From: Taiwanofungus camphoratus
Lineage: Eukaryota; Basidiomycota; Agaricomycetes; Polyporales; Taiwanofungaceae
Direction: 5' to 3'
DNA: 64,000 bases
NCBI GenBank assembly: GCA_003999685.1
Contig: CP021233.1
Coordinates: forward strand, 620,001-684,000
This document shows positions 4,370 to 55,400 of the stretch, one piece after another (within the stretch, counting starts at the first letter, position 1; each line of letters starts with the position of its first letter). Position numbers and translations under genes: made by a program. The notes beneath the pieces are model-generated. The model had not been told where the DNA came from and did no database searches. It saw nothing but the letters and a program-made list of their open reading frames with translations.

Positions 4370-4531
4370 TGGTGATAAGCTCTACAACACTCCAACTCCA
4401 ACTGGATATGACCTAGAGAAGCTAGAAGGCTGTAAAACTGTGTGTATGCAAGGGGGAGAGTCAGCAGCAAGGGTTCCTGACTCAAATTGATTGAGAGATG
4501 TCTACGAAGGTCTTCAATAATCTATAACATG
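4370..4531 (-). repeat. Old dispersed repeat, copy B, first part
   Basis: This is the reverse complement of 2940-3085 in diverged form. It stops at the edge of the chromovirus and resumes at 12292, showing that the retroelement inserted into an existing repeat copy. Confidence 0.7.
4527..4531 (+). repeat. Target-site duplication ACATG, left copy
   Basis: The five bases before the left LTR are ACATG and recur immediately after the right LTR at 12292-12296. Five-base duplications are typical of Ty3/Gypsy integrases, so this fixes both element ends. Confidence 0.9.
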
Positions 4532-5033
4532 TGTTACCGGGGGGTTCACCCTGATAATGCTGCAGAAGCTTGGAGCGGTGTGCAGCGAAGGGTCGAAGAG
4601 GAGCGACGGTGACGACGAGTCACAATCCTTGGTAGTCTTCAACTACAAGCCCTATGTAGTCGCGATAGTCTTTTATGGGCTTCTTGAGGTGCAAGGAGGT
4701 GTGTGAAGACTAGCGTGTATTGGTACTAATGCGTAGTACACTTTAGGAAAGGATAAACGAAGAGAATACGACTAGGGGAACCTCCAACAGTGGGACCCCC
4801 CTTTATACTGCCACCGTCAACCCCCAGGTATACTAGCAGCCCCCCAGAGACCGCACAAGGTGAGAGGAGTCAGCGGCCCGAAAGTACATAACTACCATGG
4901 CGTAAGCGGGGACGGTCGGCCCGTCAGTCAATCTGGGTAAATAAGGTGTGGAAGGGATGCCGCGCGTCCATGGTGTGACAAACAAAGGGAAAGAAAAGAA
5001 CGAACACGTCTCTGGTCCTATCCGACAGTAACA
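4532..5033 (-). repeat. Chromovirus LTR (3' LTR in element sense)
   Basis: It starts TGTTAC and ends GTAACA and matches 11790-12291 over its full 502 bp with about five differences, all single-base. It adjoins the polypurine tract at 5034. Confidence 0.95.
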
Positions 5034-5050
5034 CTACCCCCGTCTCCTCT
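5034..5050 (-). other. Polypurine tract of the chromovirus
   Basis: Read on the minus strand, the bases next to the LTR form a purine run (GAGGAGACGGGGG then TAG) directly before TGTTAC. This is the expected place and composition for the plus-strand primer of an LTR element. Confidence 0.75.
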
Positions 5051-5074
5051 CAGGTGTCGCCCCGACACCTACCT

Positions 5075-5881
5075 TCATGACCTGGTAGCTTCTTCGTCAG
5101 GCTGCTTCGACCCACTGATTTCCGACCAGGCAGCCCCTGCCTTGGGGCATTGGTCGGTGTCGTGATCGTCAGCGAAACAATCCAGACAGCGAGGCGGGAC
5201 GAAGGGCTCAACAGCCGGCTCCCCCAGTCGTGGCCGGTGGATGCAGTCAGCAGCAACATGATCGAGGCCCATGCAGAATTCACAGGCCCCAGCCCATCGG
5301 TTCAGGGGGCGGCACTCGGGGTGGAGACAAACTGTCCACTCGTCCTGCGTGGAGGGGGCTGGGCGTGTGATGACGGAGGAGGGTGGTAGGAGATGCTCGA
5401 GGGCGGAGACGACGTCGGTGCAAAGGAGGAAATTTAGATGGGAGCGCGTTGCATTACAGGCCTGCCAGTACGATATACCAATTTCCTGGATGGGGCTGGC
5501 CCACCACTTGGCTTCGTCATGCTCTCCCTTCTCCCTCTCCCCTCTGTACCCCCTTATTACCTGATCGAGGTGTAAGACAACCTCGGCCTGATGTCGAAAA
5601 ATGACAACCTGGGCCGCAAGATCGGGCCAGACAACGAGGGCGGTGTCCACCGCCGGGCGTAGTCGTTCGTTGGCCAGCACCCATCCGAGACGGTCGGCGG
5701 GGGTCAGAAAGTCGGCGGCGAGGCCAGATGTTGCTTGGCGAGGTAGGGGGACAACAATCCCCTCGGCGAAGTTGGGGAGGTTCTGCGGTCCCCGAAGAAA
5801 GGGATTCAGTGTGCGGGCGTTCCCTGCGGTGAGGATGGAGGCGGCAAGGCGGGCTCGGGCGGCGTTGGTTCGATGGGACAT
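5075..5881 (-). CDS. Extra chromovirus ORF after pol, with two CCHC zinc knuckles
   Basis: An open frame of 268 codons lies between the end of pol and the 3' LTR, overlapping the last part of the pol frame in a different register. The N-terminal half is alanine/arginine/leucine-rich without a known fold. The C-terminal third has two perfect C-x2-C-x4-H-x4-C knuckles (CEFCMGLDHVAADC and CLDCFADDHDTDQC). Gag of the same element has its own single knuckle, so this is a second, separate nucleic-acid-binding-type protein. Most Ty3/Gypsy elements end after integrase or chromodomain; extra 3' ORFs are known in some lineages, but I do not recognise this one. A role as RNA chaperone or regulator is inference. 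Confidence 0.6.
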   Translation of the reverse strand: MSHRTNAARARLAASILTAGNARTLNPFLRGPQNLPNFAEGIVVPLPRQATSGLAADFLTPADRLGWVLANERLRPAVDTALVVWPDLAAQVVIFRHQAEVVLHLDQVIRGYRGEREKGEHDEAKWWASPIQEIGISYWQACNATRSHLNFLLCTDVVSALEHLLPPSSVITRPAPSTQDEWTVCLHPECRPLNRWAGACEFCMGLDHVAADCIHRPRLGEPAVEPFVPPRCLDCFADDHDTDQCPKAGAAWSEISGSKQPDEEATRS

Positions 5882-8800
5882 GGTGGGAGGCGGCTTTGAA
5901 GTGCTGCGGAATGGCTCCTTGCAGGGCAGTTGAACGGTTGTCGACTGGGTTGATGCCTAGGTGGTTTGCCTTCTTATAACGCCTCAGCAGGTCAGGGGAA
6001 TGCCGTAGATCATCTTCCTTCTGCCAGGTGCTGGCAGAGACCGGCCATCCCTTCCATTTGATGAGAAATTCCCATTTCCCACGTCGGGCACGATGCCCGC
6101 GGAGGGCCTCGACTTCGTACTCTTCTTCCCCCTCGACCAGATCAGGTGGTGGTTTCAGAAAGTTGGGTCCGTGTTCCGCTGTTTCCCTGTATGGGGTGAG
6201 CAGCGATGCATGGAACACCGGGTGAATCTTCCAGGTTCTCGGGAGCTGTAGCTTGTACGTCAGTGGCCCCTTGGCTTCCGTGATCTTGAAGGGCCCAAGC
6301 CGCTTTGGGTCAAATTTCCGACTTATTGTCCTTAGCCGGAGGTTCGTGGCTTCTAGCCAAACCTTGTCGCCTTCCTGGAAAGGTTTCCAGGGAAAAGGGG
6401 TTCGTTCCTCCATCAGCTTCTGGGCTAGCTCTTGCGCTGCAAGAGCCTCTTTGCGGGATTCAGAGATCTGGGTCAGGCGGTCTTGGAGCGTGGGGTATTT
6501 GTCGGAGGGTCGTGGAGATCCGATGGCCTTCGGGTCATACCCCATGGTGAGCTTGAATGGCGATTCCTTCCTTCCAGCATGCGGCACCTGGTTGTGTGCG
6601 AATTCAAACTCGGGGATGTGTTTGACCCAGGTGTGGGGGTCATTTGCGCATAGGATTCTCCAGGCCGCCTCCAGTTCCTGGTTGACCCGTTCTGTACTCC
6701 CATCTGATTGGGGGTGGTAGGCGGTGGACATTGCCGCCTTGACTCCTGTCAGCTTACACCATTCTCGAAATGCAGCCGCTGCGAACTGTGGCCCTCGGTC
6801 GGATATCATCTGGTCAGGTAGGCCATATTGCCTGTATACATTGAGGTGTAGGGCCTCTGCCGTCCCTACCGCATCTATGTTCTTGGTGCAGGGTATGAGC
6901 ACAATGCCCTTGGTGAGTTCTCTGTCAACCACTACCATGAGCGCATTGAAGCCCTGTGACTCTGATAGATCAGTGATGAAGTCTACCGATATGTGCGAGA
7001 ATGGCCTTGAGTTCGGTTCTGTGGGGATGGCCATTAGGGGGGGTTTCGTGGGGTGTGTGTTGATCTTGCTCTCCTGGCATTTGGCGCACCCCTCAACATA
7101 TTTCTCGATGAATGAAGACATTCCATGCCAGAACCAGTCCCTTCGGGCGATGGCCATTGTACCTTGTGCCCCTGGGTGTGCCATTGCTGGTGTGTCATGA
7201 CAGAGTTGAATGACTTCTCGGCGCAGATCATCATCAGGGGGTACGTAAACTCTGTTTTTGTATAAAATTAATCCCTCCTGAATGTCCCAGTCTGCCAGCT
7301 TTGTGTGCGCAAAGCCTGTGCCCTTGAATGGCGGTACCTTCCCCCGTTTTAAAGCGTCAATTGTCTCGATGACCATCCTGTCACGGGTACGACATTCACG
7401 TATCTTTTCGATGATTGCAGTGTTGGTGGCGTTGACAAAGAGGTCTGTTGGTAGCAGGATGACATCTTCGTTGTCATGTTTCCCTCCTGGGTGGTCAGGT
7501 CGCCGGGAGAGTGCATCGGCGACTATGAGTCGACTGCCTTTTTTGTTTAATAGTTGCAGGTCAAATTGTGACAGGAATAACTGCCATCGGGCCTGGCGTC
7601 GGTTGAGTCGTTGTGCTTCTCGGAAATAGGTGAGGTTCTTGTGGTCGGTGATCACCGTAACCGGGTGTCCACTTCCCTCAAGGTGGTGGCGCCATTCCTC
7701 AAGTGCTCGGACAATGGCCAGCAGCTCTCTGTCATATACTTGATAATTCCGCTCCGCTTCTTTCAGGCTCTTCGAGAGGAAAGCTATAGGGTGTAGCCGC
7801 CCTTCTTCATCAAGTTGTTGAAGCACTGCACCAGTGGCTACCAGAGAGGCGTCGGCCTCAATGGTGAATGGTTTGGACGGGTCGGGCATGCGGAGGATAG
7901 GCATGCTCTGGAAACACCGTTTGAGCTCGTCAAAGGCCTCCTGGCAGGCTTTGGTCCAGTTCCACTCCGCGCGCTTCTTCTTGATGACATTCAAGGGGTG
8001 AGCGATGTGGGAGAAGTTGTGGATGAAGCGTCGGTAGTAGTTGGCGAGACCCATGAATCGTTCCACATCCTTGACCCTAGTAGGAATGGGCCAATCTGCG
8101 ATTCCTGCCAGTTTGTCCTTGTCCATGTGCACCTGTCCAGGTGAGATGGTCATTCCCAAGAAGTCAACTTCGATGACATCGAACGCGCATTTCTCTGGCT
8201 TTACAAATAGATCCCATTCCTGCAGCCGTTGTAGGACGCGTCTGGTTCGTTCTCGGTGGGCTTCCATATTGTCGGAGAAAATGAGGATGTCGTCCATATA
8301 GATCGCGATCCACCCCTCGGCCAGCATGTCCTGGAACGCGTCATTCATCATTCGCTGAAATGTGGCCGGCGAGTTGCACATCCCAAAGAACATGACAGTG
8401 GGTTCGACGATCTTGTCCTGATTCCCATGTTTGACCATGAATGCTCCTTTCCATTGATCGCCCTCTCTGATCCGGATGTTGTTGTACCCGTTTCGGAGGT
8501 CTAATTTAGTGAACACAGTGGCCCTTTGGAGCCTGTCGATTAGCTCTCCTATGAGGGGTAAGGGGTAGGCATCTTTGATCGTGCCCTTGTTCAGGTATCG
8601 GTAGTCCTGGCACGGGCGCAAGGTACCATCCTTTTTTTTGACAAAAAAGGCTGGTGACGCCATTGGTGAGTTCGATTCTCGGAGATAGCCCTTGGCCAGG
8701 TTCTCTTTCAGGAATTTGTCCATCGCCATCTGCTCATTTGGTGACAAAGAAATTACGGTGCATTTCCTGGGGACGAAGTCTGGCCTCAATTCAATGGCAT

Positions 8801-9179
8801 GGTCCCAGGGCTTGGATTCTGGGAACCGGTTAGCGGCCTCCTTTTCAAACAACCGTTTATAGTCCCACAGGTATTCTGGGACAAGGTCTTCTACGGATGG
8901 GGGTGGGTCCTTGGGGATCACCAATTCCGTGAGCTCTGGGGCATCCCATACCATACGTGGGGAGTCAGAGAGGTGTGTTAGTCGATTGAGCTCTACTTGT
9001 GTGGGCTTTAGGGCCTGCAGTAGCCTGTCTTCACGTGTGAGCGGCTGCCCTTTCTGTTGGAAGATCCCCAGAACCCCTTCTCCTTGTATGTAAGCACACA
9101 TTATGTCCGAAAGCTCCTCATCGTCTTCATGAATGGAAGCTCGACACAGGGGAATTCCGTCTGTCGTGGGTTGGCTCAT
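5517..9179 (-). CDS. Chromovirus Pol: reverse transcriptase, RNase H, integrase, chromodomain
   Basis: This open frame of 1220 codons has the family domains in order. Reverse transcriptase carries the YMDD active site at about residue 290. RNase H follows with an ADASLVATGAVL segment near 440. The integrase zinc finger has H...H...C-x2-C near 680-725, then the catalytic core with VDFITDL, SDRGPQF and a downstream glutamate. A chromodomain (about 1000-1050, with FLIKWKGW) assigns it to the chromoviruses, which use it to bias integration to certain chromatin. The last roughly 170 residues beyond the chromodomain are low complexity and overlap the downstream ORF in another frame, so part of that tail may not be meaningful protein. 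Confidence 0.93.
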   Translation of the reverse strand: MSQPTTDGIPLCRASIHEDDEELSDIMCAYIQGEGVLGIFQQKGQPLTREDRLLQALKPTQVELNRLTHLSDSPRMVWDAPELTELVIPKDPPPSVEDLVPEYLWDYKRLFEKEAANRFPESKPWDHAIELRPDFVPRKCTVISLSPNEQMAMDKFLKENLAKGYLRESNSPMASPAFFVKKKDGTLRPCQDYRYLNKGTIKDAYPLPLIGELIDRLQRATVFTKLDLRNGYNNIRIREGDQWKGAFMVKHGNQDKIVEPTVMFFGMCNSPATFQRMMNDAFQDMLAEGWIAIYMDDILIFSDNMEAHRERTRRVLQRLQEWDLFVKPEKCAFDVIEVDFLGMTISPGQVHMDKDKLAGIADWPIPTRVKDVERFMGLANYYRRFIHNFSHIAHPLNVIKKKRAEWNWTKACQEAFDELKRCFQSMPILRMPDPSKPFTIEADASLVATGAVLQQLDEEGRLHPIAFLSKSLKEAERNYQVYDRELLAIVRALEEWRHHLEGSGHPVTVITDHKNLTYFREAQRLNRRQARWQLFLSQFDLQLLNKKGSRLIVADALSRRPDHPGGKHDNEDVILLPTDLFVNATNTAIIEKIRECRTRDRMVIETIDALKRGKVPPFKGTGFAHTKLADWDIQEGLILYKNRVYVPPDDDLRREVIQLCHDTPAMAHPGAQGTMAIARRDWFWHGMSSFIEKYVEGCAKCQESKINTHPTKPPLMAIPTEPNSRPFSHISVDFITDLSESQGFNALMVVVDRELTKGIVLIPCTKNIDAVGTAEALHLNVYRQYGLPDQMISDRGPQFAAAAFREWCKLTGVKAAMSTAYHPQSDGSTERVNQELEAAWRILCANDPHTWVKHIPEFEFAHNQVPHAGRKESPFKLTMGYDPKAIGSPRPSDKYPTLQDRLTQISESRKEALAAQELAQKLMEERTPFPWKPFQEGDKVWLEATNLRLRTISRKFDPKRLGPFKITEAKGPLTYKLQLPRTWKIHPVFHASLLTPYRETAEHGPNFLKPPPDLVEGEEEYEVEALRGHRARRGKWEFLIKWKGWPVSASTWQKEDDLRHSPDLLRRYKKANHLGINPVDNRSTALQGAIPQHFKAASHHVPSNQRRPSPPCRLHPHRRERPHTESLSSGTAEPPQLRRGDCCPPTSPSNIWPRRRLSDPRRPSRMGAGQRTTTPGGGHRPRCLARSCGPGCHFSTSGRGCLTPRSGNKGVQRGEGEGRA

Positions 9180-9199
9180 GATCCAGGCATAGTATCCTT

Positions 9200-9640
9200 G
9201 CCATTCTGTGAGTCGAGCTTGATCAATCTCGAGCGTTCCTTCTACCCAGTCGATGCGTGGGTTGACTTGTGCGAGCCAGGGGTTGCCGAGTACTACATCG
9301 AGCGTTCCAATGTTTGAGACATAAAAGTTGGTTGGGATGTCATTTCCCTCTAATCGTATACTCCCTTCGACTCTGCGGGTAATCGGTCCCCCTTTGTTTG
9401 TAGAGCCATCAATGGTGGTTGAGGTTACTGTCCTGGGAAGCGGTCAAGTGGGGAGTCCCCACTTCTTTACAAAGTCGGGGTGAATTAGGTTGGCGTCAGC
9501 CCCACTATCCAATAAGGGGCATGCAGTGACGGCTTTCTCTCCTACTACGATGTAACCTGGTAGATAAAGTGTATTGCGCTTGCGCGTTCCGGTAATTACA
9601 TTTCGTACAGAGAGTTTAGGCGACTCGTGCATCACGTCGG
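9200..9640 (-). other. Chromovirus protease region
   Basis: On the minus strand this carries a retropepsin-like segment with the core LLDSGADANL, the single-aspartate D-S-G motif of Ty3/Gypsy proteases. It lies between the gag knuckle and pol as expected. The region belongs to the part of the element that looks broken. Confidence 0.75.
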
Positions 9641-11760
9641 GTCGCCTTACAGAAAATCCGCAAAGTCGTGGTGCTGAGAGAAGTGGGGGAATCTGACTCC
9701 TTTCGTTTCTTGCCCCTGCTCCTCCTGCTCAGAGGCTTCATCATCCGCCTCGTTTTCATCTTTCATGTTGGCCCTTCGGTTTGGGGGTCCTGTTCCCCGA
9801 CCTGAGGTTCGCTCTGGGCAGTCTTTGGCCAGGTGCCCCTTATTGTGGCATTTGTAGCAGGAGCCCGTCCTTCGGTCTTGCAAGCGCTGATGGTCTGGCT
9901 TTTCACTGTCAAATGCCCTTGCTGCAACTTGTGGGGGGGTTTTTGAAGTTCTTTGAGCAACATTGATGGCCTTGTTGTTCCGATAGGCCCAGTCCCGTTG
10001 AGCAGCAGCTTCCTTCCATTCTTCTAGGGTTGTGGGGGCTACATCTCATTCCATGATTCAGACTCGCATGGTGCTCGGTAGTTTTTCTCAGTACCAGGCC
10101 ATAAGGGCACTTTCTTCGGTGATTTCTGCCCTGCGGGCCAGTCGGTCGAACTCCTCGTTGAAATCGGCAATGGGTTTGTCGTAGGTGTAGACCAAGTTCC
10201 GTAGTCCGATGGCTGCAGAGACCTCCTCCTCTATTACCCCGAACCTTTTGATGAACTCGAGAGCGACATTCCTGAAAGTGCCGTACCCCCGGCTCACCCC
10301 TCGAATGAGGGGGTGGGGTTCGAGTGCCTTTTCGGTAAGAGTATTGGCCCAGGCACCAGCATGGCCTTCGAGGTGGCCAAGGAAATTGCCGACCTTTTCT
10401 CGTTCGGGAGCAGAGGCCCATCGCTCGGTGTCGAATCTTCGGGCAAATTGGATGAGGAAGTGTCGGGCATCCTCTCGCTTTCCAGAGAACTTAGTAATTT
10501 CTGGCTCTTTTCGGTCTGGTACCCGTGCAGCTCCCTGTGGGAGGGGCGTTCCTCCAGAAGGCTGCCCCCCTCCAGGAGGTCCTCCCCCGGGGGGTCCTCC
10601 TCCCCCAGGTGGCCCTCCTCTACCGGGTAGTCCTCCTCCACCGGGCACTCCTCCGCCAGGTGGTCCTCCTCCGCCAGGTGGTCCTCCTCCACCAGGTGGT
10701 CCTCCTCCACCAGGTGGTCCTCCTGGGGGTCCTCCGCTCTCATCATAAGGTGGTCCTCCCTCGAGGGGGCCTTCTTCCCCCAGCCCATCGTCAGGCGGTG
10801 GCCCTGATTCCCCTATTCCTGATCGGAAAGAGCTCAAGCCACGGGGTGTTTCTGGGGTGGAAGGGGATGTTTTTCCTGTCCCTTCAGTCTCCATTTGTCG
10901 TTCTGTCCGTTCAATATCAGGATCGGTCAGTTATGAGCTGGAGCCTTCGTCGGAGGGTGGGTCGGTTTCGTCAAAGGTTGTCCAGCGGGCCTGGATGAGG
11001 GCACGATTGGTTGGAGTACAAGGTTCGAAATCACTTCCCCTGTAGAGTGCAGAGTCGTAGCGGTGAGGGCACGGTTGTGTTGAGCAGACCCTCCAGTTAG
11101 AAGTCTTCGTGTAATGTCGGTGTACGTCCCGATTGTTCTCCGCTTGATAGCGATGAGCCTTCCCGGCGCACGTCAGGGTCGACCTCCGCCTCGTTTTGGA
11201 GGATGGATCCAGCTTGCCACCGGCGATAGAAATCTCGGGCGCTCAGTAGCCTTTGATATAGGTTCACGATTATGGGAACGGCCAACTGAAATGAGAAACG
11301 TGGGTTCGAGAGCACCTTCTGAGCAGTGAGGATACGGTGGTCAAGGACTTCGTCAAAATCTTCAGAGGGAGTGGGAGGTAGAGGTCGGCTCCCTTCCCTA
11401 CTTGCCAGCCTGTCGTGATTTTCTAATACAGCTTGTCAAGCGTCGCTGGCTCTGGAGATGCGGGAGCAGGTGTAAAGGATCAGCTCCCTCTGTTCAGCTG
11501 GGAGGAAACTGGTGGAGCTATCGGCGTGGAGAATGGCTCTGAGGTTGCGCTCAGCTCGATCCAGGACCTCTTCTAAAGTCGGGAGAGTAGGGTCAAACGC
11601 TGCGTGATCCAGCTCTTCTTCTTGTTCGTAGTCGATATCAAAGGGTCGTTGATAATCCGTGGTGATCAGTACTAATCCTATGAGTACGCTGACCTCGCCT
11701 TCTTCGAGACCGATACGGGTCTTTTAGGCACTGTCTTCTTGTGACCTCTCGAACCTGGAC
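9640..11760 (-). other. Chromovirus gag region
   Basis: On the minus strand, from the LTR inward, this holds an acidic helical N-terminal part (about 11,450-11,650), a low-complexity proline/glycine stretch made of repeated PPGGG units (about 10,560-10,740), a capsid-like segment (about 10,090-10,500) and a CCHC knuckle (CYKCHNKGHLAKDC) near 9,850. That order is usual for chromovirus gag with an added disordered segment. The region is broken in about two or three places together with the protease part. Confidence 0.8.
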
Positions 11761-11776: not shown

Positions 11777-11789
11777 AGTCGTATTCTAG
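11777..11789 (-). promoter_or_regulatory. Primer-binding position with self-priming complementarity
   Basis: Directly inside the 5' LTR the element's RNA would read CTAGAATACGACTCC. There is no TGG start as expected for a tRNA primer. Instead AGAATACGACT (11787-11777) is an exact 11-nt complement of AGTCGTATTCT inside the LTR (12031-12021), which lies where transcription should begin. This is the arrangement of Tf1-type self-primed elements, where the first 11 nt of the RNA prime reverse transcription. Confidence 0.7.
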
Positions 11790-12291
11790 TGTTACCGGGG
11801 GGTTCACCCTGATAATGCTGCAGAATCTTGGAGCGGTGTGCAGCGAAGGGTCGAAGAGGAGCGACGGTGACGACGAGTCACAATCCTTGGTAGTCTTCAA
11901 CTACAAGCCCTATGTAGTCGCGATAGTCTTTTACGGGCTTCTTGAGGTGCAAGGAGGTGTGTGAAGACTAGCGTGTATTGGTACTAATGCGTAGTACACT
12001 TTAGGAAAGGATGAACGAAGAGAATACGACTAGGGGAACCTCCAACAGTGGGACCCCCCTTTATACTGCCACCGTCAACCCCCAGGTATACTAGCAGCCC
12101 CCCAGAGACCGCACAAGGTGAGAGGAGTCAGCGGCCCGAAAGTACATAACTACCATGGCGTAAGCGGGGACAGTCAGCCCGTCAGTCAATCTGGGTAAAT
12201 AAGGTGTGGAAGGGATGCCGCGCGTCCATGGTGTGACAAACAAAGGGAAAGAAAAGAACGAACACGTCTCTGGTCCTATCCGACAGTAACA
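11790..12291 (-). repeat. Chromovirus LTR (5' LTR in element sense)
   Basis: It is 502 bp, TGTTAC...GTAACA, nearly identical to the LTR at 4532-5033. It holds a TATAAA box on the minus strand at 12065-12060. It is followed by the right copy of the ACATG target duplication. Confidence 0.95.
12021..12065 (-). promoter_or_regulatory. Predicted LTR promoter: TATA box and RNA start
   Basis: On the minus strand TATAAA lies at 12065-12060, and AGTCGTATTCT begins at 12031, about 34 nt downstream of the first T, a normal TATA-to-start spacing. The predicted RNA 5' end is the same 11-mer that pairs with the primer-binding position. Confidence 0.6.
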
Positions 12292-12534
12292 ACATGTGTC
12301 ACAACTGCTCGATGTAGCTTCAATGTGCTACTATGCTGTACTGAACTAGGAAGAGACTAACTGTGAGGACTTAGCTGAAATGCACCCCTTCAACTGCTGT
12401 AGAAGGTGGACTTGGTTAGAGATGAGATACTAGCACAACCCTCTGATGTGACTTAAAGGTGGACGTAAGACTGGGATACAGAAATGCAACCCTTCGACAG
12501 ATGTCAAAGATGGACTAGACACAACCCTTCAAGA
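12292..12534 (-). repeat. Old dispersed repeat, copy B, second part
   Basis: This continues copy B after the chromovirus: its reverse complement matches 2708-2950, including the CTTGAAGGGT, CAGCTAAGTCCTCA and GAAGCTAC segments. The first five bases are the chromovirus target duplication. Confidence 0.72.
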
Positions 12535-12536
12535 TA

Positions 12537-14155
12537 CAGTGACTCACAAAACTGTTGCAATATTTGTCACTTTCTGACTGTTTGACCTATATCTCAGCAA
12601 CCAGATATGTGATAGCTTCAAATGTTGGACTGTTAAAAAGCCCTGCATCATGGCTTTTCAACATGGTATCTATCATAAAAAATGGACAAGTATATGGGAG
12701 GTTATCTATTATTCTTTCAGAGAGTTCATTGCAACAGTTTTGTTGCTGACATTTTACAAATCAAATATTGGCAGACAGTGGCAGGACATCATGCTTGCTG
12801 GGCTTGAATCTTTTTGTGCAAATTATGTGACCTTAAGAGGAGTTCAATATAGCACAAACAAGCAATAATATCAAATTGAACCACACTTTCATCATCATAA
12901 AATCCCTCTCTACAGACATTTATCAATCAAATTCTTTCTCTGCTTGATTTAGGTCAATCTGCTCACCAAATACCCTGCTATACTGGTGTACATTATAGTA
13001 CTATCACCAGGATACACTTTAGACTTTGTCCTACCCTTCTCAAGTTCTCTGGTGGCCACCCAGCCAAGCTTTCCTCCACTGATATTTGTCATGCTATTTG
13101 CTTAATTAGCACTGAAAAGGCTGAAAGTGCTGTTCAAGTGTCTAAAACACTTCAGAATATTAAGAACACACACATATCCCCACAGACCATTCATTGTTCT
13201 CTGAGAAAAACAGATATGAAGGCTGTGGTGAAGAAGAAATGACCACTACTATCAAAGTGTCATCAGAAGGAGAGGTTGGACTTTGCTGTGAGTCATCAGC
13301 ACTGGACTGTGGATAATTGGAAGAAGGTTATATGGTCTGATGAGACCAAAATCAATCACCTGGGGTCAGATGGAAGGAAATGGGCATGGAAAAAGCCAGG
13401 AGAGGGTCTTAGTGTCAGACTGGTGGAGGGAACAGTCAAGTTTGGTGGAGGGAGTGTCATAGTATGAGGCTGTATGACTTGGGAAGAAGTTGAATTGGCA
13501 TGCAAAATTGATGGGAGGATGGATGCAGACCTTTATGTCAGCATTTTGGAGGATGAACTTCAAGGATCACTTGATTACTATGGTCTAACCCCTCAAGATG
13601 TCATCTTCCAGCAAGACAATGACCTCAAGCACACTAGCAAAAAGGCTAAAAGGTGGTTTCAGGACCATGATTTTAATGTCATGGTATGGCCAGCTCAGTC
13701 TCCTGACCTCAATCCTATTGAGCACCTTTGACAACACTTGAAAACAAGGCTTGCAGGGTATGAAAAGCCTTCAAGTGGGATTTTGGAGCTTTGAGAGTGT
13801 GTGGAAAAGGAATGGGATACAATTGATGCTTCTGTGTGTCAAAATTTGATAGAAAGTATGTCTAGAAGGATAGAGGCTGTGATAAAGGCAAAAGGAGGAT
13901 ATACTAAGTACTAATAATTTGTATTTTCTATTTCATATTATGCTAGCAACAAAACCATTGCAATGAACTTTCTGAAAGAATGATAGATAAATTCACATAT
14001 ACTTGTCCATGTTTTATGATATATATCATGTTGGAAAGCCATGATGCAGGGCTTTCTAATGGTTGAACATTTGAATTTATCAGATATTTGATTGCCGAGA
14101 TATAGGCCAAACAGTCAGAAAGTGACAAATATTGCAACAGTTTTGTAAGTCACTC
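12537..14155 (+). mobile_element. Tc1/mariner element, copy 1, inactive
   Basis: A 1619-bp element flanked by TA (12535-12536, 14156-14157). It has unusually long terminal inverted repeats of about 210 bp (12537-12748 against 13944-14155) starting CAGTGACTCAC. The transposase lies on the plus strand, about 12930-13916. A helix-turn-helix segment near 12950 resembles Tc1 proteins, and the catalytic triad is visible as DD34E: WSDETK, QQDND and PIEHL, with 34 residues between the second D and the E. In-frame stops at 13240-13242, 13465-13467, 13729-13731 and 13792-13794 disable it. Copy 2 at 40754-42372 has exactly the same length. Most differences between the copies are transitions. Confidence 0.92.
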
Positions 14156-14157
14156 TA

Positions 14158-14376
14158 TACTGTTGTCACCAACCCCTAGACACTGCTATGTCATCCCCCT
14201 GGGATAGCATAAAACAAGTAGGGTTAGTGGCCTGAGTGTATAACTACTATGGCATAAGCAGGGACCGTTGGCCTGTCAGACAATCAGGGCAAGTAAGCCA
14301 GGAAGTGGAGCCACACATCTATGATATAAGAATAGAGAAAAAATGATCAAGGCTGTGGCCCTACCAGTTGTTAACA
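14158..14376 (-). repeat. Diverged partial LTR related to the chromovirus
   Basis: This matches the inner-to-end part of the chromovirus LTR in the same orientation: TACTG...CACC...AACCCC, then GTATAACTACTATGGCATAAGC, then an end reading GGCCCTACCAGTTGTTAACA. The other half of the LTR is missing, and the Tc1 copy sits at the break. It is an older relative of the family at 4532-12291. Confidence 0.7.
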
Positions 14377-46989: not shown

Positions 46990-47285
46990 CGCCATCGTGT
47001 ACTCCACACCGTGTACTATAAGTATGTTACAACGATCGATTGTATGCGCATCCAGGTTCCGAGCGAGACCCGAAGCCGATCGCGCAACACAGACGGTCCG
47101 GTGGCAACATGAATCTATTCTTTCCGATACTTGTACAATCAAATCCCTGGGCGAATCTGCTGGGGTACAAATCTAAATCTCCTGATACAAATCTAGGTCT
47201 CGATCTCTGGGCAAATCTCTGTTCGATACACATCTCGGGACGTCTCGCGGTACAAATCCAAGGGGTATCTCTGGGTATCTCTGGA

Positions 47286-47345
47286 GGACTGGATGGGATG
47301 GGATGGAGTGGGGTGGGGAGGGGTGGGGTGTGATGGGGTAGAATG
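47286..47345 (+). repeat. G-rich GGGATGG/GGGGTGG repeat
   Basis: Repeated runs of three to four G separated by one to three bases could form a G-quadruplex on the plus strand. Confidence 0.8.
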
Positions 47346-48313
47346 GGAAACGATGGACAGGGGAAAGACCGCGCGGGCAGGGCAGGACGCGCACCCGGAC
47401 TCGCGACGTGGCGTTGCCCTCAGGCTTCGACCTTCGACCTGCAAGCGCGCACAGCAGCATCAGCACACGGGACCGAGAAGACGCAGCACGGCGCGCAGGG
47501 GCACTCACCTCGCACTCGCAGCACACCATGCCTCCGTAAGCGACCCGCCGGACCGAACCGAACACGGCCGCACCGCTGCACCAGCCACCAGCACCGCACG
47601 CCCGCACACCGAGGTGCGTGCGCGCGCCGCCGGCCACTGGGTACTAGGCACTGGGCACTAGGCACGGCGCAGAGCCGTGTGGCCGCGAGCACGCCGCGGG
47701 ACGCCCGCACACCGCAGTGCGTGCGCCCGCTGCGCCGCGCGAGCCGGTCCAACTTCTGGGTCGCCGGGGTTCGCGTTCGCTGAGGTCGTCGAGGGTTCGC
47801 TGATGGTCAATGAGTGTTCGATGAGCGTTCGCTAAGGGTTCGCTGAGGGTCGCCGGGCATGCGTGCGTGTCTGTCCTAGAATCCGCGCGCGGGTGGGAGT
47901 TGAGAAGTGCGAACGAAGCCTGGCTCCGAGACGCTGCTCTGCTCTGCTCTGCGGGGGTGGGGGTGGGGGTGAGCGTGCTGCCGGGACGAGAGAGAGAGAG
48001 AGATAGAGACGCACCCTGCGCTGTCCGCTCGCGCGCGCACTTGTGTTTCTCCCCTCTGGCCGTGCGTCCGCGCTGCCCAGTCCCGAATCCGTCCTGGGCA
48101 GTCACGAGCCCAGCAGCCCCGCCGTCCCGCCCCGTCCCATCCCGCCGCCCACAATCTCCTGCAAGGCAGCCCAACGCAGTCCGGTCGAATCCAGGCGGAA
48201 CAGAAAAGAAAATGGAAGAAAAAGAAAACCGAGGCACGAATCCAAGGCGACGCCGAACCAGCTGTTCCCCCCCCCCTCCTCTCCCCTCCTCTCCCCCCCA
48301 GCGACCCCACACC

Positions 48314-51300
48314 TCACCGCCACGCGAACTTCACGTTACGCCCGTCCGCCGGGCGGAAGAACTGCTCGAGGGGGAGCATCCTGGGGGGCGTCGCGATCAG
48401 GTTCTCGCCCCGGCTCCGCACCGGCGTCCGCGCCGGTGTCCGCGCCATCGCCGTGCCTGCGCGCGCCGGCTCGGGGGAGGCCTTTGGTGCCAGGGCGGAC
48501 CTCCGAGCCGGGGTGGGTTTCGCCACGAGCGCGGGCTTCGGTGGGAGGCCGTGCTTCGGCGCGGGCATCTCCCCCTGTACCGTCGGGCGGTTCGTCTTTG
48601 GACGCAGAGGCGCCCTCGCAGCACCACCGATGGGGGCGGCGGCACGAGCACGGGGGGACGCGACACGAGAGCCGGCGCTCGCGTCGCCCTCGGTCACACG
48701 GCGCGGCCGCACGCGCAGGGAGGCGCGCTCGCCCGGCTTTGGCAGCAGCACGGGGGAGGGGTGGGTGCGGGAGGTGATGCGGCAGCCGGCGGGGGGGTTG
48801 TTGAGGTTCTGGGTTCGCGTTTGGGCCGGAGTGCGATGGGGTGCGGGGGAGTGTACGGCGGTGGGTGGGAGCCTGGGCGGCGAGCGGGAGGAGATTGGGG
48901 CGCGGTGGGCGTTTGCGGGGGAGATAGTCTTTGCGGGTGTGGTAGTCTTCGCGGGGGCGATAGTCTTTGCGGGTGTGATAGTCCTCGCGGGTGTGATAGT
49001 CCTCGCGGGTGTGATAGTCCTCGCGGGTGTGATGGCCTTTGCGGGAGCGATAGTCTTTGCGGGGGCGATTGTCTTCGGGGGAGGAATAGTCTTTGCGGGG
49101 GGGATAGTCTTTGCGGGGGCGGTAGTCTTTGCGGGGGGGATAGTCTTTGCGGGGGCGGTAGTCTTTGTGGGAGTAATACGCGTTGCGGGGGCGATAGCCT
49201 TTGCGGAGGTAAAAACCCTTGCGGGGGTAATGACCTTTACGGGAGTGACAGCCTTTGCGGGGGTGACAGCCTTGGGAGGGGTGATGGCAGAGGCTGTAGA
49301 AACGGCAGATGCGGGGGGACGGAGGGCAGGAGCTGCGGGAGTCAAGAGGGCAGAGGGAGCTGCGGAAATGGCGGCGGGAGAGGGACATGGGGGAGGAGGG
49401 AGAGGGGCATTAGAGGGAGCAGCGGATGATGCAGGAAGCCTAGTGGGCAGAGTATGGAGGGGAGCAGTGCAAGGGGCAGGGACGGAAGGAGAGGCCACGG
49501 GAGGAGTCGGCGTAGGGATGGCGCAGGCAGAGACAGTGGAAGCGCCACGAGCGGGGCGGGTGTCGTGGCCGGCGTCGCGCTTGGCCTTCCACTCGTCGAA
49601 CGCGGCACGGCGGCGTGCGCGGGTCTCGGCGGAGAGCGAGGCCGGCGCCTGGCGGAGGAGCGCCAGCACCGCGGCTTTCGCGGCGATCGCGGTGACATCA
49701 GCACCAGCAGTGTCCGCGGCGTCCGCGGAGGTAGCCTGCCAAGGACACACACGCGCTCAGACCATGACGCGCGAGAAGCGAGCATATGACACCTACCCGA
49801 CACGCGTCGTCGCCGCCCTGCACCGGGCTGGCCCCAGCCTTCTTAAACGCCGCCTCCAGCCCGCCCCCCTCACCATCGCCCCCCGTCCCTTTCCCCTCGC
49901 CGTTGACCTTCAAGAGGCACACCAGCGGCGCCCCCGCGTCCTCCCCCCCAGCGCGCACCCCGCCCCCAGCACCATCCTCGTCGCCTTCCCCCAGCTGCCC
50001 CCACCGCCGCCTCACCGCCCTCGCCCGGCGCGCCACCTCCCTCCCCAGGCTCTCCATCGACCCCGCAGCGTCGCGCCCCCTCGCCACCATCGCCCGCTTC
50101 TTGATCCGCCGCAGCACCTCCGAGTCCCCCTCCTGCGCCGCCGTCCCCGCCCGCACGACGTGCCCGGGCGGCGGCGGCGGCGGCGCAGGAGGAGGCGCAG
50201 GCGCCCGCGCGGTGAAGTGCGCCATGACGGCCCCGATGCCGTCCAGAAAGTGCTCCGCGGCCGCCTTGGATGCCAGCCGCCGCGCGAGGAAGCCCGGGCA
50301 CCCGGGCAGGTGTGGGAGGGGGCCCGCGGCAGCCGCTGTGTTCGCGGGTGCGAGTGTGTTCGCGGGCGCGGTCCTCTCCTTGCCCATGTCCATCTCCGCA
50401 TCCGCGCCGCCGCGGCCCTCGTGCTCGACGAGGAACCGCGCGAGCGCGTCGAGCCGGAACGCCCGCGCGTTCGTCAGCTCCGTCTCCAGCCGCACAACGT
50501 CCCAGAGCTCCGCGCGGACCTGCGGCGTGAGCACCGGCACGCCCTGCGCGTCGACCGCGCACGCAGGCACAGGCGCCTCCGTGGAAGGGAGCGCAGCGGG
50601 CGCAGGACCGGGGGAGGGGGCGGGCGCAGCGTCGCTGGCGTCCGCGCGGGCACCGGTGCTGCAGATCGGGGTCAATGTCACGCTCATCAAACCAGCAGGA
50701 AACACCGCGTACCGCCCGGTCGTCTCTTCCGCCCCGGACGCGCCTCCGTCCGTCTCCTCCACCTCGACGCCCGATCCGCTCGCGTCTCTCGTCTGCGTCT
50801 GCGGCGCCACCGCGATGCCCGCATCGCCGTCCACGCCGCCGCTGCGGCACCGTCAGCGCGTCGCCAGCAGAGTCCGCGCCGCACGCACCTGATATGGCCA
50901 GCCACCCCGCGCTCCACGGCGTCGTCGCCCGTGTCTGCCACGGAGACGTCCCCACCCTCGTTCTCCGTCTCCACCACCCGGACGACTTCCACGCCCACGT
51001 CCGCCTTCACGTCCACGTCCACCTCCACGCCGCCACCGCCCTCACCCTCACCACCCCCATCCCCGCCGCCGCCGGCGACGACGACGCCGAGGCCGAGGCC
51101 AGGGAGCACGCTGCAGCGCAACCAGTCAGCACAGCGCCCGCACCACGAGCGCGGCGGGGAGACACTCACGACGCGATGCACGGGTACCCGCGCGCGACGC
51201 GCTCGCCCTTGAGGTACACGTCGAACAGCGCCGTCGCGGACAGCTCCTTGGCCGGCGCGAACAGCGCCAGGCGCGGCGGCCGCGCGGGGGCGGGGGGGGT

Positions 51301-51918
51301 GTCGTCCGTGTCGTCCGCGTCGTCCGTGTTGATGGAGGTGGAGGTGGAGGTGGAGGTGGAGGTGCTGGTGTCGGGGACGGAGACGGAGACGGACGTGTCG
51401 GCGCTGCACGGCGAAGCGGGGCTGCCTGCGGCGGGGGCGTTGTCGTCCGCGTCGTCGGTGTCGGTGTCGGAGACGGGCGCGTCGGCGCTGCACGGCGAGA
51501 CCGGACTGCCCGCAGCTGGGGCACTGTCCGCAGCGAGCGCGGCGGGGAGGGTCCCGGCCAGGTCGTCGCGGCGGAGGGGCGCAGCGCGCGTGCGGGGCGG
51601 GGACGCGGCCAGCCCGAGGGTGCCGGCGGCGGGGACGGAGCGGCGCCGGCGGTGGTTGAGGGCGATGGTGGGGATGGCGGGGAGGCGGAGGAGGCGCGCG
51701 GGCGGGGGGAGCGCGAGGTGCTTGAGGTGCACTGGCAGCGGGGGCGTGAGTGAGTGGACGACCTTGTGCACGGCGCGCCCGAGCTTGGCAGCGGTGCGCG
51801 CGCGCTTGGGGGCGTCGACGGGGGGAGGAGCCGATGTTGATGTTGATGTCGTTGTTGTTGCTGTTGTTGAAGTGTGTTGGGGGGCAGCTGCACGCGCGGG
51901 GCGGAATGGGCTAGCCAT
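48314..51918 (-). CDS. Large low-complexity protein of unknown function
   Basis: Four exons (51918-51170, 51110-50889, 50841-49797, 49735-48314) give 1145 residues with all three introns in phase and a stop at 48314. Exon 1 has a basic region near PKRARTAAKLGRAVHKVVH and acidic aspartate/threonine runs. Exon 3 holds the only well-ordered part, a predicted helical stretch around RAELWDVVRLETELTNARAF, followed by more charged helices. Exon 4 contains twenty hexapeptide repeats of the type AKTIAP and ends in basic, proline-rich DNA with a conserved-looking close EQFFRPADGRNVKFAWR. The basic PAK-like repeats recall histone H1 tails and hint at a nuclear or chromatin role, but this is inference; I do not recognise the family. 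Confidence 0.72.
48928..49288 (-). repeat. Twenty tandem 18-bp units coding hexapeptides
   Basis: In the minus-strand frame the units read AKTIAP, ARTITP, AKTTAP and similar, each with one basic residue at position two and proline at six. Adjacent units are sometimes identical at DNA level, which suggests recent expansion. Confidence 0.9.
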
Positions 51919-52427
51919 TGTGGGCCTGGTGCAGATGCGGTGGATGTCTTGGGTCAAGTTGTGTGCGGGGCAGATGGGGGATGTTCGCGGGTTTTTATGT
52001 TGCGGGGGGAGGGAGGCTGACACGGTCCAGCCCCGGCGGGGCTGACGGTGCGGCTGACGGCGAGCGCGCAGGCTCGATCGCAACTGAACGGACATGGGCC
52101 GGCGACGACGAGGCCAGAGGGGAGAGCCAACAGGCGCGATGGGACCCGCCGTAAGCACTCGCCGACGCGTGCACGCAGCACTCCGTCTACAGAGAATAGA
52201 GAATAGAGAGTAGCACGATCTAGCAGTGCTCTCGCAGGGCGATCGCGGCCCCCCGAGTCTGCAAACGACAGTAATAAGAAAGCGGCACGGCGAATTCACG
52301 TCACATACCCTCACGCAAATCGCACCTCTTACTCACCGCCCCCCGCGCACAGACGGGCCCACAGCACTCAACAGACGAGCAGAAAAAAAAACCAACAGAG
52401 CTGCGCATTCACATCACACACACGACT
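51919..52427. other. Intergenic region between MAK21 and the large hypothetical gene
   Basis: A 509-bp stretch; contains the presumed promoter of the gene at 48314-51918 and the MAK21 3' end. No gene seen. Confidence 0.6.
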
Positions 52428-55400
52428 CTACACATCGTCCTCCGGCCCGTCCTCGATCATCGCCGCGTACGCCTCGTAGCTCGCAAACGTCGGCAGCGCC
52501 CTCAGCTTCTTCCTCCCCTTCCCCTTGCCCTTTCCCTTCGCGCCCTCCTCCCCGCGTTTCCGCTTCTTCGACGCTATCCCGCCCACGCCGATCCCGCCCC
52601 ACTCCTCCTCGTCCTCAGACCCGCCCGGCGCGTCCGACCCGTCGTACTCGATCAGGCCTGTTGGGACCTCTGTGTCGAGCGGGAGCAGGTCCTCCGCATC
52701 CGACGCCTCTACCAGCGACAAGCCGTCGCCGTCTGCGCTGCCATCGCTATCTTCGCTCTGGTCCGCCCCCCCCTCGCTTCCGCTCCCGTCTTCGTCGCTC
52801 TCATCCTCCAGCCCAGACGGAACCCCGTCGCTCCCGCTGTCCTCCATCAGGTCGTCGTCCTGCAGCTCCGCCGGCATCGACGCCTTCATAGCCTACACAC
52901 AGCCAGCCGCAGTCGTCAGCGCACGCCGCCAACCTCAACCGCCCACGGTACTTACCTCCCAGATCTCCCCCTCACCCACGTCGCTCTCCCCGTCCTCTGC
53001 CGCCTCCCCTCCGCTCTCCCCATCGTCTACAGCGCCCTCATCCTTATCGGCGCTCTCGTCCCCAGACTCCGCCGCCCCGCACGCCTTCCGCTTCCCGGCC
53101 CTCGCGGCCTTGCGCTCCTCCTGCTCCTTCTTCCTCGTAAAGAACCTATGGAAGAACAGCTACCCGCCACGCATCAGCGCACATCCCGCACCCCACCCAC
53201 CCAATCCAAAGCACACACACACACGCACCTGGTCAACCGGGACGTCCTCCGCCCGCCGCCTCCAAAACGCCTCCTCGTTCACCGCGTCCGCCTCCACCTC
53301 CCCGCCCCGCACCAGCCGCACCCCGTCCGCGCGCCCCGCAGCAGGCTGCATCGCGCTCGGCCCGCGCCCGCCCGCCCGCGGCTTCTTCGCGTTCCGGTAC
53401 ACGAACCGGTCGAGGAAGTGCGCGAGCGTGTTCAGCGCGAGGTCCGGCGCCGCCGTGAGCGGCGCGCCCGCGAGCAGCTGCCGCGCGTGCAGCGCGACCG
53501 CCGGGTGGTAGTGGCGCAGCAGCGGCAGCTGTGCAGAGACGCGACGTGCGAGGGAGTCAGAAGACGCGCGCGGGTATGGGAGAGGAGAAGGGGGGCGCAC
53601 CAGCTCGTACAGCGGCGAGGCGGACGCGTGCGCGAACTGCGGGTCGCGCTTGAGCGGGTCGTACGCCGCCGCGTCCGCTGCAGTCGCGTCGCCACCGCGC
53701 TCCGACGCCAGCATGTCCCTGAGCGCGGGCAGCGCGCCAAACAGCTGGCAAACAAAGGAGCGCCGGTTTAACAAAAAAAAGAACGCGCGCGAACGTCACG
53801 GAAAGACCACCGACCTCGCCAAGCAGATACAGCCCCCCCGCGACGAACTCGGCGCCGCCGCCGCCTGCGGTGCCCGCCGCGAGCACCTGCACGAACCGCC
53901 TCACGAACGCCTTGACTCGCTCGGAATTGTGGTCAGCCTTGAGCGCCCTGAACAGCAGGTTGAGGTACATCGCCTGCTTGTTCGACGCCGCGAGCCGCGC
54001 GTCCGCGAGCGACGCGTAGAGCGTGCGGTAGAAGCGGTCCGCGAGCGACGCGGCGAACGACTCGGGCGGCACGCGTGGCGCGGACGCGGACGCGGGGCCC
54101 AGCGCGGTGACGATCTGCAGGAGGAGCACGAGCGCCTGCAGCGAGATGTTGAACGTCGACGTGTGCGTGATCAGGAAGAGCGTGTCGATGTGGCGTTTGA
54201 ACCTATAGACACCGTGTCAGCGTCGCTGAGCACATAACTATCTCTCCGATAATCAATGGACCATGTTCTCGAAGGAACAAAGGGAGACCCAGAGAGGAAG
54301 AACGAGACACGCACACGTCGTCGCCCGCGCCGGCGGTCACCTTCGCAAAGGGCAGCGCACGGTTGACACCCGTCAGCACCGCACTGACCAGCCTCGAGCT
54401 CGTATCCTCCACCTCCGCGAAGCCCGCCGCGCCCCTGACCTCCTTCGAGCGACCCTTCCCCTTCCCCTTTCCTTTCCCCTTCGCCTTGCCGTCCTTGACT
54501 CCGCCCCTACCTTCGTCTCCGCTCTCCGCCTCCCCAGCATCTCCGTCCCTCTCATCCTCCACGTCCCGGGAGGCGCTCCCACCGGCCGCACCCAAGATCT
54601 CCTGGAACATCTCGAAATACACCCCGATCAGCGTCCGCGCCACCGCGCGGTCATGCTCGCCCGCGGCCAGCACGACCTGGTTGAGCGTCACGGCGGCGTA
54701 GTACCACGCGTGCGAGTTCCACCGCTCCATGGCCGGCGCACCCGCCCGCCCGCCCTTGTCCTTCGCGCCGGCCGGCTTCGCGGGGGCCCGCTTGCCCGCG
54801 GCCTTTGTGTCCCCTTCGTCGTCGCCGTCCCCGAACCTGACATGCGTACTGGCTTTTTTTTCCGCAGCCTGAGCGCCAGCTTGGGCGGCAGCGGAGGAGG
54901 ACGCCGCCGGCCGAAAGATCAGCGCTTTCACTTCGCGCACGATCACGCCCTTCATGTTCGGGTGCGCCTGCAGCAGCTGCAGGAGGTGGTACGACGCCCG
55001 GGAGCAGATGGACTTTTCGGTGTCCCCCTGCATCAGTCGGATACACGTGAATTAGCCATGCAGTCGCGGTCATGAGGACAAGCCCCGTGGAGGGCAGCGG
55101 ATGGTAGGTGGGGCAGCGGACGAGACGTACCAGCTTGTTCACAAGCAGTCTGAGCAGATTCTGTTCCTGTTCTGGCTTCTCGCGGAGAAGAGTGGAGATG
55201 AACGCAAGCGATTGCGTCCGGACGTAGGTCAGAGGGTCGAGTGAGTATGTCTAGGCACACAATGAAGCGAAGTCAGAGGCAGCATCACATGGCGCAGCAC
55301 AGGCGATAAGATAGAAGTGCGCCGTGTATGCAAACTTAACACGACGAAACGGCATGCACAGGCACAGACATTTCGGGAGCTTTTCCGGAACGTGAGGTGA

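Follow-up and report, generated by a model that had tools for sequence, protein, structure and literature searches.

Self-priming of reverse transcription has been demonstrated on Tf1 of fission yeast, and it is also implicated in relatives of Tf1 whose hosts range from fungi to vertebrates (PMC4600332, section 3). In Tf1, the first 11 bases of the RNA pair with the primer-binding site (PBS), and the cut made by ribonuclease H (RNase H) falls between bases 11 and 12 (PMC7175516); a stem of the U5-IR type is also needed. According to PMC10085805 (section 28), self-priming is common to the Tf1/sushi group, whose members outside the fission yeasts include MAGGY, skippy, Cgret and marY1 (tree legend, PMC10085805). 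It has been proposed for Tcn1 (PMC7175516) and predicted for 12% of surveyed plant long terminal repeat (LTR) elements (PMC6317226); for SM-Tcn1, a Tcn1-like element of a non-seed plant, evidence of neither tRNA- nor self-priming was found, according to PMC2864245. We describe here a chromodomain Ty3/gypsy LTR retrotransposon on the minus strand of a 64,000-nucleotide (nt) stretch of the Taiwanofungus camphoratus genome (C14:620001-684000, the whole of which is called the window; positions are those of the window). This element very probably primes its own reverse transcription in the manner of Tf1. Self-priming is already known from the group, and therefore what is added is further members and a co-variation test internal to one genome.

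The primer and its binding site

The following features of the window element carry the argument.

11790..12291, minus strand: 5' LTR, 502 nt, TGTTAC...GTAACA
12060..12065, minus strand: TATAAA box, its first T being 34 nt upstream of 12031
12021..12031, minus strand: putative self-primer AGTCGTATTCT, with which the element RNA is presumed to begin (11 nt)
11788..11789, minus strand: spacer CT, 2 nt, from LTR end to PBS (sequence)
11777..11787, minus strand: PBS AGAATACGACT (sequence)
4763..4773, minus strand: copy of the self-primer within the 3' LTR (sequence match)

An earlier, sequence-only reading of this DNA had noticed that the bases next to the 5' LTR are an exact complement of an 11-mer inside the LTR, placed about 34 nt after a TATAAA box, and had likened this to Tf1, which uses its own first 11 nt as primer, as PMC7175516 indeed states. 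Each part of that description holds. The PBS begins 2 nt past the 5' LTR and complements the primer exactly over 11 nt; the primer starts 34 nt after the box, counted from its first T, with a pyrimidine immediately before it; and the pairing ends after 11 nt with a mismatch at either side, as had been claimed. Beyond the PBS, the primer and the 3' LTR copy, no further match with at most one mismatch was found in the window. The coincidence had been called improbable, and this is borne out by shuffling the letters of the LTR and the following 20 nt, since a complement of 11 nt or more anywhere in the LTR was reached in 2 of 3000 shuffles; adding the required place after the TATA box makes chance rarer still (about 10 places x 4^-11).

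The same reading had remarked that no tRNA-like TGG starts the primer site. Indeed, none occurs within the 22 nt that follow the 5' LTR, and the same holds for the 22 nt behind each of the four LTR kinds considered below. The mature 3' end of a tRNA is thus ruled out as the primer, whichever tRNA is considered.

Conservation and co-variation

The genome searched comprised 33.2 Mb in 15 contigs. For the window family, the LTR copies examined were the best 40 of 211 candidates (2 in the window and 38 elsewhere), with diverged copies outside the sample. All 40 keep the primer 11-mer. In 17 of them a PBS lies downstream, exact in 16 and with one mismatch in the remaining copy (L087); copies that kept the PBS and lost the LTR complement had been named as evidence that would count against self-priming, and there was none among these 17. 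The TATA box is TATAAA at the same spacing in 33 of the 40 LTRs and one nt further in 2, with TATAAG in 4 and TGTAAA in 1. Genome-wide, a gapped pattern that leaves the middle 3 nt of each side free recovers 44 primer/PBS arrangements, counted with their letters not displayed and hence with the free middle bases unseen, and the reversed pattern recovers 0. There are 182 occurrences of the bare 11-mer and 50 of its reversed form. The primer/PBS pair is a constant part of the window family, and such conservation alone does not establish that the pairing matters.

A more direct test comes from other families. We picked ten further Ty3-type elements by open-frame length from the best 150 of 373 candidates and compared their end pieces. 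An LTR pair was detected in nine, and all nine (9/9) carry an exact complement of 11 to 13 nt between the LTR and the sequence that follows it; the tenth, on contig C8 with a frame of 1595 amino acids (aa), has no LTR pair detectable by BLAST and stands outside this count, and its 5' region is matched by the gapped pattern of the 1667-aa family (C8:1253020-1253342). The core is AATCTTGTCCT in two elements of a family with a 1667-aa or 1659-aa frame, AAGTCTGATCT in six elements of a third family and AAGTTCGATCT in one element of that same family; the AAGTCTGATCT and AAGTTCGATCT groups are, by their sequences, subfamilies of it. When cores are cut to 11 nt at offset 2 for comparison between families, the 11-nt core and the 2-nt offset are identical across the three families despite their different sequences. 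In the other two families, the shuffle test reached the complement in 5 of 3000 and 0 of 3000 shuffles. As a separate observation on the 1667-aa and 1659-aa elements (ends L107 and L109), gag and pol seem to form one frame, judging by frame length; the window family has two.

The differences between families are compensated. When the window family is compared with the 1667-aa family (pol proteins about 76% identical), primer positions 2, 5, 7 and 9 differ (4/11), and all four changes are matched in the PBS. The two subfamilies differ at 2 of 11 primer positions, again both compensated; among the subfamily sites whose letters were displayed (29 of 90, with only the two differing bases free), we counted by eye 16 TC/TC, 12 CT/CT, none swapped and 1 mismatch. 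The third-family pattern has 90 sites genome-wide and its reversed control 0. For the 1667-aa family the pattern has 41 matches and the reversed control 13, which is less clean than in the window family (44 versus 0) or the third family (90 versus 0). In the third family, TATA[AT]A precedes the core by 34 to 36 nt. The co-variation that had been proposed as a check is positive, because primer and PBS differ together between families, and this result supports the self-priming interpretation. It rests on few independent events, namely the split between the window and 1667-aa families (four positions), the split between the subfamilies (two) and the deeper difference of the third family. One genome with at least three families, each with a different primer and its exact complement, amounts to a natural co-variation experiment for the mechanism, and for every family the 11-mer yields a prediction of the RNA start at single-base precision.

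Predicted fold of the leader

The RNA from 12031 to 11720 has a folding energy of -80.1 kcal/mol; shuffles average -68.1 kcal/mol (z = -2.51), and none of the 100 folded as low. Its minimum-energy fold holds the primer:PBS duplex together with a stem of 9 base pairs (bp), in which the sequence that follows the primer pairs with the LTR end. The arms of this stem are as follows.

12008..12016, minus strand: 5' arm of the U5-IR-like stem GUUCAUCCU, directly downstream of the primer (predicted)
11802..11810, minus strand: 3' arm of the U5-IR-like stem AGGGUGAAC, directly upstream of the LTR end (predicted)

The primer:PBS duplex (10-12 bp) is present in the minimum-energy fold of all ten leaders folded. 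The position of the 9-bp stem would correspond, in the predicted fold, to that of the U5-IR stem of Tf1, and in the window family a stem of this kind was reached by 5 of 500 shuffles.

Evidence against self-priming and alternative explanations

Several results weigh against the self-priming reading. Folding the leader had been suggested, and what emerged agrees with Tf1 in part: the primer:PBS duplex and the U5-IR-like stem are there in the window fold, but no counterpart of the third duplex in the Tf1 'pretzel' rose above shuffles in any of the ten leaders (131 to 496 of 500). The stem itself stands out in the window family only. Among the AAGTCTGATCT elements, 33 to 186 of 500 shuffles equal it, and for the AAGTTCGATCT element and the 1667-aa family it is at chance, with 408 to 446 of 500. 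Thus the full Tf1 fold is not demonstrated. Within the window family, one arm of the stem is changed in 8 of the 40 LTRs, with no compensating change in the other arm. Next, the invariance of the primer is modest or weak evidence, because it is shared by 36 of the 492 windows of 11 nt in the LTR (a count that includes the primer), and it is weaker still in view of the sample, the 40 top-scoring LTRs of 211 candidates. The LTR of the 1667-aa family, when searched, has no TATA[AT]A. Finally, there are imperfect pairs: the L087 PBS (1/17), the mismatched site among the 29 subfamily sites displayed, and, among the listed third-family PBSs, six that carry another middle pair, AA in five and AC in one, at least one of which mismatches its own primer (C1:2715111-2715333). 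By their sequences, these exceptions look like decay.

Of the readings that compete with self-priming, the one that survives best, and is still improbable, is that the primer is a fragment of a host tRNA, or some other host RNA, which shares the 11-mer with the LTR by coincidence. The room for it comes from the extent of the tRNA check. Of the 63 listed matches the check took in 30, which gave 29 distinct sequences: 12 belong to nuclear contigs, whose listed matches number 41, and 17 to contig C15 alone. In addition, the PBSs of two families (B and C2) match a tRNA over 9 nt, a length that 6 of 60 and 5 of 60 shuffled PBSs equal. A matching host tRNA fragment had been named as evidence against self-priming, and as far as this check reaches (29 tRNAs, 12 of them nuclear) there is none: the window PBS region has no complement longer than 6 nt in the 29 tRNAs with CCA added, a length attained by every one of the 60 shuffled PBSs, and none of the 100 listed 11-mer sites (of 182; contigs C1-C5) falls by eye inside a listed tRNA match. 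The mature tRNA 3' end is excluded for the reason given above, and a host RNA of any kind is not expected to track the LTR of each family.

A slightly smaller chance is left to the view that the complement is a structure of the leader that acts in packaging, translation or dimerisation and is not a primer. The leader does fold better than its shuffles, and stems of the U5-IR type serve other roles too in retroelements. However, the pairing is located exactly at the place that a PBS must occupy, no PBS of the tRNA type is seen, and the 11-nt core with its 2-nt offset is constant in three families whose sequences differ, all of which speaks against this view. A chance match, which the shortness of the 11-mer and the two shuffles that reach it anywhere in the LTR might suggest, is hardly credible given its recurrence at the same places with different sequences in the other families (5 and 0 of 3000 shuffles).

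Proposed mechanism

From the sequence, the positions, the conservation among copies, the co-variation between families and the predicted fold, all of which are shown here, we infer an RNA start, a cleavage, a priming step and a rewriting of the PBS in the following way. The element RNA would begin at about 12031 on the minus strand, and its first 11 nt (AGUCGUAUUCU) would fold back on the PBS 2 nt past the 5' LTR, perhaps assisted by the 9-bp stem that the sequence after the primer may form with the LTR end. Cleavage behind base 11 by the element's RNase H would then release a 3' end, which would serve to prime the minus-strand DNA. In the established order of reverse transcription, the primer is copied by the plus-strand DNA. 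This copying would rewrite the PBS from the 5' end of the RNA, and if so, LTR and PBS should change together; the rewriting would also account for sites that remain complementary despite drift and for the abrupt end of the match after 11 nt.

It is possible, and we put it forward as a tentative extension that is doubtful at present, that several families in this one genome self-prime with two of the three pretzel duplexes or with primer:PBS alone, the PBS being rewritten in every cycle. If this reduced fold and repeated rewriting were true, the primer could drift freely, as in the 4 of 11 positions changed at about 76% pol identity, with the length of 11 and the offset of 2 fixed.

Structure and surroundings of the window element

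The remaining features of the element are these.

12292..12296, no strand: target-site duplication ACATG, 5' side of the element (sequence)
4527..4531, no strand: target-site duplication ACATG, 3' side of the element (sequence)
4532..5033, minus strand: 3' LTR, 502 nt, differing from the 5' LTR at 5 positions
5037..5051, minus strand: polypurine tract GAGAGGAGACGGGGG, 3 nt ahead of the 3' LTR (sequence)
10088..10930, minus strand: gag frame, open part, the ATG-started portion matching Retrotrans_gag (Pfam match)
9647..10045, minus strand: gag frame, second open part, with CCHC knuckle CYKCHNKGHLAKDC (open frame and motif)
5517..9443, minus strand: pol open frame with reverse transcriptase, RNase H, integrase (H2C2, rve), SH3_Tf2-1 and chromodomain (Pfam matches)

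The element is flanked on both sides by the 5-bp duplication ACATG. A domain scan of a 1220-aa part of pol gives the chromovirus order, reverse transcriptase, RNase H and integrase with a C-terminal chromodomain. This copy is broken: gag is split into 10088-10930 and 9647-10045, and pol is interrupted by a stop between 9444-9728 and 5517-9443. Open frames are longer in other genomic copies (1403 aa versus 1308 aa in the window copy). The gag frame 9647-10045 and the pol frame 9444-9728 overlap at 9647-9728, and by coordinates they stand in a -1 relation; this 82-nt overlap holds no standard slippery heptamer.

About 240 nt beyond the 5' LTR, the stretch 12534-14158 carries a pair of 219-nt inverted repeats, 88% complementary, with 1187 nt between the arms; its inner part, looked over by eye, may resemble a Tc1/mariner transposase. 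A 110-nt inverted repeat (2752-2861 and 12364-12473, 79% complementary) has its arms 9.5 kb apart, flanking the retrotransposon. Further away, 47173-55142 is dense with long overlapping open reading frames on both strands, and the four of them that were scanned gave no Pfam match at E 0.001. Among the other contigs, C15 (150,773 nt) is probably mitochondrial. Several of its tRNA matches repeat at an offset of 115,207 nt, and therefore the contig seems to cover more than a single turn of a circle of about 115 kb.

Comparison with known elements

In a search of the Protein Data Bank (PDB), Ty3 was the best solved relative, retroviral reverse transcriptase and integrase were matched too, and no entry named Tf1 was among the best 60 of 75 matches; for this reason the search does not place the element within the chromoviruses. 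In the titles and abstract openings of our partial literature collection, there is no report of primer/PBS co-variation within one genome.

The window element resembles Tf1 in the 11-nt complement between the inferred RNA 5' end and the PBS (PMC7175516), and in being a chromodomain Ty3/gypsy element whose pol matches Pfam SH3_Tf2-1 (PMC10085805). It differs in that Tf1 has a single open reading frame and a Gag without CCHC (PMC10085805), whereas the window element has gag and pol in two frames, -1 by coordinates, and a CCHC knuckle. The third pretzel duplex of Tf1 was found neither in the window element nor in the nine others. The LTRs of Tf1 are also shorter than the 502-nt LTRs described here. 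With Tj1 and Tosmo of other fission yeasts, the element shares a PBS complementary to the RNA 5' end (PMC4600332, section 3; PMC10085805, section 28) and 5-bp target duplications, and differs from them in its frame change.

The members of the Tf1/sushi group outside the fission yeasts have the chromodomain, the CCHC knuckle and the -1 gag/pol frame in common with the window element (PMC10085805). In those members a -1 frameshift joins gag and pol; in the window element the two frames overlap in a -1 relation, with no slippery heptamer in the overlap, a comparison made by description. The window element is a probable member of the Tf1/sushi group; its pol has SH3_Tf2-1 and chromodomain matches, and its CCHC knuckle and -1 frame relation fit the members outside the fission yeasts.
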